48,534 bases of DNA from Streptomyces sp. NRRL S-337. Lineage in GTDB: Bacteria > Actinomycetota > Actinomycetes > Streptomycetales > Streptomycetaceae. Shown here piece by piece: positions 6,945 to 14,826 of this stretch. A program made the translations under genes and the position numbers. How positions within the stretch are numbered: position 1 is the stretch's first letter; every line of letters starts with the position of its first letter. The notes beneath the pieces were generated by a model, which was not told where the DNA came from, made no database searches, and worked only from the letters and a program-made list of their open reading frames with translations. Location of the stretch: the NCBI RefSeq assembly GCF_000720175.1, contig NZ_JOIX01000053.1, positions 1 to 48,534 on the forward strand, in the 5' to 3' direction.

Positions 6945-9851
<2,907 letters not shown>

Positions 9852-9935
9852 CGTCCTCAAAGCTCCATCGATCGTCTCTGCCTGCGGAAACGCGCCTTGT
9901 TCCGGAACTTGTCCCCGGAACTCCGGAAACAAAAA

Positions 9936-9957
9936 GACCCCTCGCACAGGAGGGGAC
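9936..9957 (-). terminator. Intrinsic terminator within leuS leader
   Basis: Stem CCCCTC/GAGGGG (9950-9955 with 9938-9943) with a six-base loop, followed on the minus strand by TCTTTTTGTTT. A clear U-tract of this kind is unusual for this genome and sits before the leuS start, so it should act as a conditional stop. Confidence 0.8.
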
Positions 9958-9998
9958 GCCGCGCCGATTCCGACGGGTCTGTCATCCGTCGGCACTGA

Positions 9999-10037
9999 TC
10001 AGCGCGGCCCGCTAAGCAGAAGGCGTACGGCACGCAT
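9999..10037 (-). CDS. Leader peptide MRAVRLLLSGPR (leuS leader)
   Basis: Twelve codons plus TGA. Codons 6-8 are CTT CTG CTT, three Leu codons in a row. CTT is a rare Leu codon in this G/C-biased genome, which would make translation sensitive to Leu-tRNA supply. The ATG lies exactly six bases after TACCCT, so the transcript probably starts at the ATG with no Shine-Dalgarno. The peptide itself is unlikely to have a function beyond sensing. Confidence 0.7.
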   Translation of the reverse strand: MRAVRLLLSGPR

Positions 10038-10067
10038 GGCGCCAGGGTACCGCAAGGGCGTGCGGGG

Positions 10068-10094
10068 CCCGCGCCGGGATTCCCCCGGCGCGGG
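10068..10094 (-). terminator. Terminator after S53 peptidase gene
   Basis: Perfect 11-bp stem CCCGCGCCGGG/CCCGGCGCGGG (10068-10078 with 10084-10094) with a five-base loop, 14 bases past the stop on the minus strand. It separates the peptidase transcript from the leuS leader promoter just downstream. Confidence 0.85.
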
Positions 10095-10107
10095 CCGCGC
10101 CGATCCG

Positions 10108-12066
10108 TCAGGGACGGTAGGAGCTCACGTAGCCGGCGCTGGGGCTGCCCACGCCGGTGACTTCGTCGTAGCCGACGACGGCGTGCAGGGAGCTGTCCTT
10201 GCCGAGGCTGCGCAGCGAGGTCGTGGTGCCAGCGCTGCTGTCGGTGCCGTTGACGTAGTCCACGCGGACGACGGCGAGGTCACGTCCGGCGCCCAGCGGG
10301 TGGTCGGTGACGTCGTGGTAGGCGGACGTTCCGTAGCGCTGGTAGATGCCGGGGTTGGCGAAGCCGATGGCCACACCGTGCCGGGCCTGCTGGGCGAGCG
10401 CCTGGACGCCGGCGATGACCGGGGCGGCCAGGGAGGTGCCGCCGATGCGGTACTCGTCGTAGCCGAGCTTGCCGCCGGGCAGGGTCTGGGTCTGTCCCAC
10501 CAGGAAGCCGGTGTTGGGGTCGGCGACCGCGGAAATGTCCGGAACGGTGCGCATCCGGCCCTTCAGGAGGGTGTTGGACAGCGAGTCCGGGACGACTCCG
10601 CGCTGGTAGAAGGGCTGCGCGACGGTCTTGCTGACGCCGCCGCCGGCCCCGCCGTTGAAGGCGCCGGGGAAGCCGGCCCAGCTGCTGCCGTCCTTGGAGA
10701 GCAGCGCCTTCTGGGTGCCCCAGCCGGTCTCCCACTGGTACTTGTCGTGCTTGCCGACGGCCAGGGAGGTGCCGCCGACGGCGGTCACCCAGGCGGAGTT
10801 CGCCGGGGTGTCGACCTGCTTGGTGCCGGTGTTGGCGACCTCGTCACCGTTGTCGCCGGAGGAGAAGTAGAAGCCAATGCCCTGGACGGCGCCCTGCTGG
10901 AAGAGCTGGTCGTAGGCGGCGGCCACGTCCGGGGTCTCATTCGCCTCGATGTCGCCCCAGGAGTTGGAGACGATGTCGGCGAGGTGCCCGTCGACGATCT
11001 TGCCGAGCGAGTCGATCAGATCGTCGTCCATGCAGGAGGAGGCGCCGACGTAGACCACGTCGGAGGCCGGGGCGACCGCGTGGACGGCCTCGACGTCGAG
11101 GGTCTCCTCGCCGTACCAGCCGGCCGCGCCGCACTCGTCGATGTGCGTGTACTTGTTGGGCAGCACCTGGGAGAGCTGGCCGCGGCGGTACGCGGCGTCG
11201 CCGTTGCGGGCGGCGTACGTGGCGGCGTCCTTGGAGATCGTCGGCGAGGCGAAGGCGTCGGTGATCGCGACGGTGACACCCTTGCCGGTCCACTTCTTCG
11301 CGCCGTAGGCGGCCCGCAGCTGCTTGCCGGTGTAGCCCTTGACCGCGTACGGCGCCTTGCTCCCGTAGGCGGACGGCAGGCTCTTGTTGGTGCGCGAGCC
11401 GTAGTACGAGGAGAACGGGCCGGAGTTCCGGAAGACGCCCTCCGGGGGCGGCAGTTCGCCGGAGTGGTGCTTGGCGAGCTTCGGCGCGTTGTCCAGGCCG
11501 GTGACCGTCAGCACCGCGTCGGCCAGCGTGGCGGGCGCGGAGGCGGTGGTCGACGGGGCGTGGTAAGTGTGCCCGCCCTTGCGGTAGTTGTGCAGGTCGG
11601 TGGCGAAGGCCTGCTCGGCGGCGGCCGCGTCGCCCTGGACCGTGAGGTAGCGGTGGGTGGAGCCGGTGACCTTCAGGCCGGACTTCGTCAGCCAGTCGGT
11701 CACCTTGGCTATCTGGTCACGGGTGGCGCCGAAGCGCGCCCGCGTCTGGGCGGGGCTCAGGTACTTCCCGTACGCGGCCGAGTGCGGGTCGGACACGGCC
11801 CGGGCGTAGGCGGCCAGGCCCTTGGCGTCGCGGCCGGCGAGGTAGACCCGGGCGGTGACGGCCGTGGAGTCCGCGGTGGCGCCCTGGTCGGCCTTCTGGG
11901 TGGCCCAGAGGGGCTTGGTGCCCAGCAGTGCGTGCCGGCCACCGTCGTGGCCCGCGGCGTCGGCGGCGGGCGCGCCGAGTGCGAGCGCGCCGGCGACCAG
12001 GGGCAGCGCGGCTGCCCAGGCCAGACCGGCGCGGACGCGCGGTGATCCGGTGTGGCTTGATCTCAT
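10108..12066 (-). CDS. Secreted S53 (sedolisin/kumamolisin-type) serine-carboxyl peptidase
   Basis: 652 residues, a preproprotein. A Sec signal peptide (residues 1-38, ending near APAADAAG) is followed by a pro-kumamolisin activation domain (about 40-200). The catalytic domain carries the S53 residues: Glu320 and Asp324 (GEETLDVE), the oxyanion Asp405 (SSGDNGD) and the nucleophile Ser545 in GGTSLAAP. The C-terminal calcium-site pattern is present: DVTD near 585 and GYDEVTGVGSP near 632-642. The enzyme should cut proteins outside the cell, usually at acidic pH. AGGGGG lies just before the ATG. It is monocistronic, bounded by its own terminator at 10068-10094. Substrate unknown. Confidence 0.95.
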   Translation of the reverse strand: MRSSHTGSPRVRAGLAWAAALPLVAGALALGAPAADAAGHDGGRHALLGTKPLWATQKADQGATADSTAVTARVYLAGRDAKGLAAYARAVSDPHSAAYGKYLSPAQTRARFGATRDQIAKVTDWLTKSGLKVTGSTHRYLTVQGDAAAAEQAFATDLHNYRKGGHTYHAPSTTASAPATLADAVLTVTGLDNAPKLAKHHSGELPPPEGVFRNSGPFSSYYGSRTNKSLPSAYGSKAPYAVKGYTGKQLRAAYGAKKWTGKGVTVAITDAFASPTISKDAATYAARNGDAAYRRGQLSQVLPNKYTHIDECGAAGWYGEETLDVEAVHAVAPASDVVYVGASSCMDDDLIDSLGKIVDGHLADIVSNSWGDIEANETPDVAAAYDQLFQQGAVQGIGFYFSSGDNGDEVANTGTKQVDTPANSAWVTAVGGTSLAVGKHDKYQWETGWGTQKALLSKDGSSWAGFPGAFNGGAGGGVSKTVAQPFYQRGVVPDSLSNTLLKGRMRTVPDISAVADPNTGFLVGQTQTLPGGKLGYDEYRIGGTSLAAPVIAGVQALAQQARHGVAIGFANPGIYQRYGTSAYHDVTDHPLGAGRDLAVVRVDYVNGTDSSAGTTTSLRSLGKDSSLHAVVGYDEVTGVGSPSAGYVSSYRP

Positions 12067-12407
12067 GTAACCCCCTGCTGTGGCGATGCGATGCGCTGCG
12101 GGGTGACGCGGTGCGCCGGTGCGCCGATGCGCGGCACCTCACGAGCGGTGCATGCGGTGGATGTGACGCTCACGCGATTCGCCACTCTTTCGGTGAACTG
12201 TTCATGTCAGGGGAATGTGATCACCAAGAAGAGGCCAAGGAATGACAAGGACTGGTCAGGAATGACCATCCGGCGAACAGTGAATCCGCCATAGCGGACA
12301 GGTACTTGACGGGGTGTCACTCCGCATGCCAAGCACTCACCCCACCCGGGAGCCGGGCGCACACAGCAGAGCAGGCCGTCCGCAATGGACGGCCTGCTCT
12401 GTTTTTG
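12067..12407. other. Intergenic region upstream of S53 gene
   Basis: No gene seen. It holds the peptidase ribosome-binding site (AGGGGG next to 12066), a G/C-rich simple repeat of gGTGCGCC-like units (about 12109-12134), two copies of AGGAATGAC (12238-12246 and 12258-12266, 20 bp apart), and the tRNA terminator hairpin (12367-12401). The paired 9-mers could be operator half-sites for the peptidase gene; that is a guess. Confidence 0.5.
12367..12401 (-). terminator. tRNA-Ala terminator hairpin (copy 1)
   Basis: Perfect 15-bp stem (12367-12381 with 12387-12401) with loop GCAAT, just beyond the 3' end of the tRNA on the minus strand. The T-run (12402-12406) is on the plus-strand side, so plus-strand transcripts heading towards the tRNA would also be stopped. 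Confidence 0.8.
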
Positions 12408-12480
12408 TGGAGCTAAGGAGAATTGAACTCCTGACCTCCTGCATGCCATGCAGGCGCTCTACCAACTGAGCTATAGCCCC
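12408..12480 (-). tRNA. tRNA-Ala (anticodon GGC), copy 1
   Basis: 73 bases from GGGGCTA to discriminator A. The acceptor arms GGGGCTA/TAGCTCC pair. The D-arm is GCTC-AGTTGGTA-GAGC. The anticodon stem CCTGC/GCAGG encloses ATGGCAT, giving anticodon GGC. The T-arm is AGGAG-TTCAATT-CTCCT. CCA is not encoded. It is identical to the copy at 14754-14826 and has its own promoter (12524-12552) and terminator. Confidence 0.97.
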
Positions 12481-14745: not shown

Positions 14746-14753
14746 CCGGGTTG

Positions 14754-14826
14754 TGGAGCTAAGGAGAATTGAACTCCTGACCTCCTGCATGCCATGCAGG
14801 CGCTCTACCAACTGAGCTATAGCCCC
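14754..14826 (-). tRNA. tRNA-Ala (anticodon GGC), copy 2
   Basis: 73 bases, identical throughout to the tRNA at 12408-12480, with anticodon GGC. Flanking promoter, leader and terminator sequences differ, so only the mature tRNA is duplicated. The leader contains a CCGGGG-TTTT-CCCCGG hairpin (14845-14860). Confidence 0.97.

Follow-up and report, generated by a model that had tools for sequence, protein, structure and literature searches.

Ribosome-mediated attenuators of the kind known from E. coli trp, his and leu combine a leader rich in the sensed amino acid with a pause hairpin and a terminator that ends in a U-tract. In these systems, one strand is common to antiterminator and terminator, and a leader that is left untranslated terminates transcription.

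In Streptomyces, candidate classical attenuators have been described before leuS of S. avermitilis and S. coelicolor by Seliverstov 2005 (PMC1262725), which, in the part drawn on here, names antiterminator and terminator hairpins and leaves aside whether the two have bases in common. A 2021 reannotation of S. lividans TK24 (PMC8079986) placed a leader peptide, LeuL2 (MRAVRLLLSEPR), together with a hairpin and a uridine stretch before leuS; LeuL2 is leaderless by RNA-seq, and the sections of that report used here name attenuation and give no further mechanism. In the same portions of both papers, leuS attenuation is reported for Streptomyces only.

This study concerns the region upstream of leuS in a 48,534-nt contig of Streptomyces sp. 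NRRL S-337 (hereafter the window), for which an earlier, sequence-only reading had proposed a candidate attenuator with competing hairpins. The leader found here, MRAVRLLLSGPR, is identical to LeuL2 at 11 of 12 residues, and both precede leuS (PMC8079986, as far as used here). The element is a further orthologue of the published leuL2/leuS leader, and its kind and place were already known; added here are its breadth, the covariation of three helices, the enrichment of CTT codons in the leader and the finding that the hairpins do not compete for bases in predicted folds.

Architecture of the leuS upstream region

The features of the region are collected in Table 1. The individual parts noticed in the sequence-only reading were all recovered, and in the order expected of an attenuator: a 12-residue leader beginning six bases after TACCCT, a CTT CTG CTT run, pairing of the last leader codons with a segment before the terminator, a perfect seven-base hairpin in between, and a U-tract terminator ahead of leuS. 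Transcription is predicted, from the position of the -10 element, to start at or beside the A of the leader ATG, which would make the leader leaderless. The 5' arm of helix 1:2 consists of the last base of codon 10, codons 11 and 12, the stop codon and one further base.

Table 1 Features of the leuS upstream region (positions in the window)
Feature	Position	Strand	Sequence or size	Remarks
-10 promoter element	10049-10044	(-)	TACCCT	6 nt upstream of ATG 10037
Leader ORF leuL	10037-9999	(-)	MRAVRLLLSGPR*, 12 codons + TGA	TGA at 10001-9999
Regulatory Leu codons	10022-10020, 10019-10017, 10016-10014	(-)	CTT, CTG, CTT
Helix 1:2, 5' arm	10008-9998	(-)	GCCGCGCTGAT	Fold and covariation
Inner hairpin	9992-9986/9976-9970	(-)	CCGACGG/CCGTCGG, 7 bp	Between the arms of helix 1:2
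Helix 1:2, 3' arm	9968-9958	(-)	ATCGGCGCGGC	11 bp with 10008-9998; fold and covariation
Spacer, helix 1:2 to terminator	9957-9956	(-)	GT	Minimum-energy fold pairs G9957 with C9936
Intrinsic terminator hairpin	9955-9938	(-)	CCCCTC-CTGTGC-GAGGGG	Stem 9955-9950/9943-9938; terminator scan and covariation
Candidate RNA polymerase pause	9948-9947	(-)	U|G	Terminator loop, 10 nt past the base of helix 1:2
U-tract	9937-9931	(-)	TCTTTTT	Directly after the terminator stem
Mini-ORF	9868-9857	(-)	ATGGAGCTTTGA, ATG GAG CTT TGA	Ends 5 nt before the leuS start
leuS, leucine--tRNA ligase	9851-6945	(-)	968 aa	TIGR00396 equivalog, 886 bits (cut-off 548.4)

A terminator scan of 9800-10200 returned two sites against 0.1 expected, one of them the terminator listed in Table 1. 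The 114-nt leader folds at -51.9 kcal/mol, compared with -42.2 (sd 3.3) for shuffled sequences (z = -2.97; 1 of 200 shuffles was equally good), and its minimum-energy fold comprises helix 1:2, the inner hairpin and the terminator. An Rfam scan of the whole window at the gathering threshold yielded two tRNAs and nothing else, with no riboswitch or T-box match, and a permissive scan of 9800-10150 gave no match at E ≤ 1. The window carries two tRNA-Ala genes, both with anticodon GGC, at 12407-12480 and 14753-14826 (-), about 2.3 kb apart and with equal Rfam scores.

Upstream of leuS, its frame is uninterrupted by stop codons across the terminator and as far as a GTG at 9995 (window 9995-6945, (-)), so that automatic annotation may extend LeuS to 1016 aa and give it a false N-terminus. 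Reinitiation at this GTG after the leader stop, with translation continuing through the terminator into leuS, was considered and rejected, as relatives do not consistently retain this codon. The mini-ORF was likewise rejected as a second leader, its stop codon not being kept throughout relatives. A stretch at the mini-ORF, CGATGGAGCTT, is well kept in the genus while the stop is not, and perhaps represents only a ribosome-binding site.

Conservation within the order and leader codon usage

Conservation was assessed in 60 genomes of the order, comprising 45 of the same genus (this one included) and 15 others. The element precedes leuS in all 60 (58 recovered by the first pattern, L047 and L049 by a looser one), and none of them lacks the leader, its -10 spacing, the Leu run, the helix or the terminator. 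A TAnnnT motif lies 6-7 nt upstream of the leader start, and an in-frame CTT closes the Leu run exactly 6 nt 5' of CCGCGC, in 60 of 60 in both cases. Loss of the leader or of its Leu codons in relatives, which the sequence-only reading had named as counting against attenuation, was thus not seen in this sample; the comparison it had suggested gave a Leu run in all 60 genomes and covariation in all three helices.

CTT accounts for 116 of the 180 leucine codons in the 60 leaders. For leuS itself, the stretches available from 30 Streptomyces loci contain no CTT among 1,077 leucine codons, and distant leuS stretches contain 5 among 947, the comparison having been drawn from leuS stretches of the fetched loci rather than from whole genomes. 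Since the leader is rich in CTT while leuS is nearly devoid of it, the leader appears to sense a little-used codon, which we take to be read by the leucine tRNA with anticodon GAG. Among 51 distant elements (described below), CTT was read in 43; the entries for the last Leu codon are void in four of the 51 (L227, L228, L237 and L280), to which a wrong leader start had been assigned.

One distant leuS leader counts against the attenuator reading: that of L079, MASQQQRLIGPR, contains CTT as its sole Leu codon, together with a Gln run, while in L081, a genome of the same family, the leader contains FLLL. In 14 elements (L052, L053, L055, L081, L082, L083, L236, L243, L244, L252, L257, L260, L265 and L282), a UAG stands directly 5' of helix 1:2, yet the arm that follows this stop codon has been retained. 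Because the arm is kept behind an early stop codon, it appears to be maintained as RNA. A ribosome at the early UAG would again cover much of the 5' arm.

Covariation of the three helices

The alignments comprised 48 of 60 elements (A1), 43 of the 45 genus members (A2) and 29 sources (A4). Within the genus, the leader shows little variation, eight of the ten pairs scored in helix 1:2 are invariant and none changes on both sides, and the six terminator pairs never vary. As both helices are nearly invariant in the genus, the within-genus covariation is that of the inner hairpin, in which five of seven pairs show two-sided changes among 43 Streptomyces. This hairpin varies in sequence and length, and it is missing in L048, L050 and L051.

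Among 29 diverse elements, two-sided changes with pairing retained were found at six of the ten helix 1:2 pairs, at three of the six terminator pairs and at all five pairs of the inner hairpin. In this alignment, which was fitted to the structure under test, 97.1% of cells are paired, and none of 500 shuffles reached any of the five measures.

Distribution beyond Streptomyces and associated genes

Two covariance models were used for wider searches: R1, built from the order, and R2, with distant members added. At E ≤ 0.001, R1 matched 24 of the 396 genomes that represented the phylum, of which 12 belong to the same genus; R2 matched 200 of 394 genomes of the class, in 85 of 137 genera. From the stronger matches, as listed outside the genus, 60 distant loci were picked for family spread. 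The following gene is leuS in 56 (50 identified by motif, six by reading) and citramalate synthase in three; the remaining match (L251) is followed by the contig end. One locus (L229) has masked letters after the U-tract. A leader-plus-helix pattern, applied irrespective of the gene that follows, matched at least 119 stretches; among the 80 listed, its carriers include Streptomyces, Kitasatospora, Streptantibioticus, Jiangella asiatica, Actinophytocola and Serinicoccus. The same pattern occurs in L157, a contig of a metagenome-assembled genome labelled Deltaproteobacteria, where either the label is wrong or the match is due to chance. Taken together, the model matches suggest that leuS attenuation is common well beyond Streptomyces. 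Lopatovskaya et al. (2010) reportedly treated attenuators of aminoacyl-tRNA synthetases, and a wider range for leuS may be in print there.

The genes downstream were not confined to leuS. In L267, L271 and L284, leaders reading MQSALIIT or MPSQVLIIVRRAG stand before citramalate synthase, followed by helix and terminator arranged as at leuS; Ile codons accompany or replace those for Leu. The enzyme was assigned by TIGR00977 on fragments of L271 and L267, below the full-length cut-off, and by reading in L284. Because Ile codons appear where the gene is citramalate synthase, the codon run seems to follow the pathway, and these three elements are candidate isoleucine attenuators on the strength of their sequences.

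R1 also matched leaders before leuC (L084) and leuA (L086), the genes being assigned from fragments; a short R1 match, L085, was taken for chance. Within the genome studied here, the second-best match of the leuS model is the leuA leader MRYGLLLLSCRGEGL (E = 0.11). The leaders of L084, L086 and L285 (leuA) all have CTTAGC..CCGCG at the start of the helix, which hints that one ancestral leucine leader was copied ahead of several leu genes.

A separate observation concerns TGTCCGGA, which recurs right after the U-tract in distant elements (e.g., L225, L227, L228 and L250) and in some genomes is complementary to leader codons three to five. Pairing of the first leader codons with the sequence after the U-tract amounted to -11.6 kcal/mol for an element's own partner and -11.0 for swapped partners; 180 of 5,000 permutations were as good and the median rank was 0.43, kinship being ignored in this calculation. 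The signal is weak, and the pairing is no more than a lead.

Predicted folding as a function of ribosome position

Constrained folding was performed in five ribosome states (no ribosome, Leu 1, Leu 2, Leu 3 and near the stop), the ribosome being represented by 13 blocked bases counted from the first A-site base. For the last state, the ribosome was placed a codon before the stop, and leaders with an early UAG were handled alike, the 5' arm of helix 1:2 being covered either way. The 60 order elements were folded together with 51 of the 60 distant loci, the three citramalate synthase leaders having been skipped and six loci unparsed (L259, L265, L266, L272, L277 and L283).

In the order elements, the median probability of the terminator was 1.00 without a ribosome and at Leu 1, 2 and 3, and 0.99 near the stop, with minima of 0.56, 0.49, 0.40, 0.37 and 0.26, respectively. 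In the distant elements, the median was 1.00 in all states, and values below 0.5 occurred in one of the 51 without a ribosome and in one near the stop. The best fold lacking the terminator was at least 10.0 kcal/mol worse in the 60 order elements and at least 6.7 worse in the 51 distant ones. An antiterminator sharing bases with the terminator was sought by eye and by pseudoknot-free thermodynamic folding in the five states across the 60 and 51 elements, and none was found.

Helix 1:2 behaved differently. Its median probability was 0.99-1.00 without a ribosome and at Leu 1 to 3, with a minimum of 0 at Leu 3, where one or more of the 60 order elements no longer formed it; with the ribosome near the stop it was lost in the thermodynamic model (median probability 0). 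The helix begins about 5 nt past the last Leu codon, and an A site at Leu 1, Leu 2 or Leu 3 costs it none, about two or about five of its eleven pairs. In this model, the position of the ribosome thus decides whether helix 1:2 forms or is lost.

These folds revise the sequence-only reading in two respects. The hairpins it had called competing share no bases in the predicted structures, and the terminator stays in the best folds in every ribosome state. Its statement that a stall at the Leu codons would cover 10002-10008 is roughly the reverse of what was obtained, in that a stall at Leu 1 or 2 leaves the helix with the 5' arm 10008-9998 nearly whole and a ribosome at the leader end removes it. 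The candidate attenuator is supported as a leucine-dependent, ribosome-mediated element, given the conserved and covarying leader, Leu codons and helices; the notion of competing hairpins is not supported by the folds of the 60 and 51 elements.

Predicted abutment of helix 1:2 on the terminator

The gap between helix 1:2 and the terminator in the predicted folds is 0 nt in 43, 1 nt in 7 and 2 nt in 10 of the 60 order elements, 57 of which have 5 bp or more at the helix base; in the distant elements it is 0 nt in 39, 1 nt in 10, 2 nt in one and 5 nt in one. When the C-run is taken as the end point, 59 of the 60 have a spacer of 1-3 nt; the value for L061 is -1, so that helix and C-run may have one base in common there. 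The distance between the arms of helix 1:2 ranges from 9 to 53 nt across the 60 order elements.

Control terminators were taken from 119 loci around leuS in related genomes and from the window, and are not independent. The set held 69 terminators; in 19 of them the terminator formed a stem of its own in the fold, and in 50 it did not. An upstream helix lay within 1 nt in 12 of the 19 terminators that fold with one. An adjoining helix of at least 5 bp was present in 4 of the 19 (4 of 69 overall), compared with 45 of the 51 distant leuS elements when these, too, were folded without constraints. A stricter first control of 28 terminators gave an adjoining helix in eight and one of at least 5 bp in a single case. 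In predicted folds, mere closeness of a helix to a terminator is common, and a long covarying adjoining helix is not.

A U|G step is located 10 nt past the base of helix 1:2 in 59 of the 60 order genomes and 11 nt past it in one, and 9-11 nt past it in 42 of the 51 distant elements. About 10 nt past the hairpin is the spacing of known hairpin pauses. The spacing is kept though the loop sequences differ (e.g., CUGUGC and AUGCGC), and the regularity is partly a reflection of shared descent.

Proposed mechanism and alternative explanations

From the sequence evidence as a whole, we consider it highly probable that leuS is controlled by leucine-responsive, ribosome-mediated transcription attenuation. 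The general statement is shared by two of the alternatives discussed below; readings differ in how the terminator would be disarmed. For intrinsic termination, the stem must form while within the exit channel of RNA polymerase. Helix 1:2 abuts the base of the terminator, so that it should be unable to enter the channel beside the terminator stem; and as a long covarying adjoining helix is rare in the controls and the stem must close in the channel, we propose helix 1:2 as an antiterminator that acts by abutment, without base sharing. With no base-sharing antiterminator found, the ON state rests on this steric argument, and we regard the abutment step taken by itself as plausible, with the balance leaning a little against it. 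A narrow literature search for a published abutment mechanism found none.

Under the proposed scheme, when Leu-tRNA is ample, the ribosome would reach the stop codon, cover the 5' arm and hold helix 1:2 open, whereupon the terminator would close in the exit channel and transcription would end. When Leu-tRNA is short, above all the CUU-reading isoacceptor, the ribosome would stall at Leu codon 1 or 2 and helix 1:2 would form ahead of it, placing a stiff helix at the terminator base that could not enter the exit channel. The terminator would then fail to close in time and leuS would be transcribed, so that the gene would be turned up on leucine shortage. Polymerase and ribosome may be kept synchronous by a hairpin-type pause about 10 nt past helix 1:2. 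Abutment is consistent with where the Leu codons lie, since a stall at Leu 1 spares helix 1:2 and a ribosome at the leader end removes it.

Helix 1:2 might instead be a pause hairpin only, synchronising polymerase and ribosome, with the ON/OFF decision made by a protein, by Rho/NusG or by kinetics. The U|G spacing described above speaks for such a role, and there is a precedent for an upstream hairpin in the E. coli S10 operon, where, in work by Zengel and Lindahl in 1996, such a hairpin was reportedly needed for attenuation at a terminator. A pause alone, however, does not explain how starvation would lead to read-through, and we judge this explanation unlikely, though worth keeping in view.

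We hold it to be rather improbable that the element is a classical trp-type attenuator, in which an antiterminator (2:3) sharing bases with the terminator forms upon ribosome stalling. The leuS leaders of S. avermitilis and S. coelicolor are called classical attenuators in the part of Seliverstov 2005 (PMC1262725) used here, a figure of which may show a pairing outside those considered in this study, and in the ilvB-II motif the P1-loop region is proposed to pair with the 3' side of the terminator (PMC10272879, in the portion drawn on), for which no counterpart was found here. Against these points, no terminator-free fold came within 6.7 kcal/mol of the best in the 60 and 51 elements (10.0 in the 60), and the sole upstream helix that is conserved stays clear of the terminator, with a possible one-base exception in L061.

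Touching helices can stack in free RNA, which would allow the opposite polarity, with flush stacking of helix 1:2 aiding termination and a stall lowering leuS expression; less synthetase when charged tRNA is short would make little physiological sense, however, and the identical layout stands before citramalate synthase, a biosynthetic gene, making this reading very improbable. A constitutive early terminator accompanied by a fortuitous short ORF, with leucine regulation absent, is scarcely credible in view of the Leu run and 6-nt spacing kept in 60 of 60 genomes, the enrichment of the rare CTT, the model matches in 200 of 394 class genomes and the covarying helices.

Extending the abutment mechanism to the wider set of matches, we tentatively, and with real doubt, put forward an old and common actinobacterial attenuator class, before leuS and, by model matches, leuA, leuC and citramalate synthase, in which antiterminator and terminator would not have to overlap: an abutting, covarying GC helix would hold the terminator outside the exit channel, and a ribosome finishing the leader, rather than a stalled one, would remove that helix. 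In contrast to trp, an untranslated leader would then be ON. Should a flush helix suffice to silence intrinsic termination, an antiterminator that shares bases would be dispensable for attenuation, and attenuators of this kind would escape any search that requires one.

Comparison with known systems

Compared with E. coli trp, his and leu, the leuS element differs in that its untranslated leader is predicted to read through. With the leuS attenuators of Seliverstov 2005 (PMC1262725), as far as that paper is used here, it agrees in gene, genus and parts; a base-sharing antiterminator was not found here. The LEU element, or LeuL1, before leuA in Actinobacteria has a leaderless run of Leu codons, as does the leuS leader here, but in the relevant portions of the literature the leuA leader is described as lacking a typical terminator (PMC8079986), unlike the leuS element, and as forming a pseudoknot whose base stem joins the Leu codons to the Shine-Dalgarno box of leuA (PMC1262725). 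The ilvB-II motif of Corynebacterium, a reporter fusion of which was high in minimal and low in rich medium in Bacillus subtilis, resembles the leuS element in carrying a uORF in P1 and a terminator as P2 (PMC10272879, in the part drawn on here).
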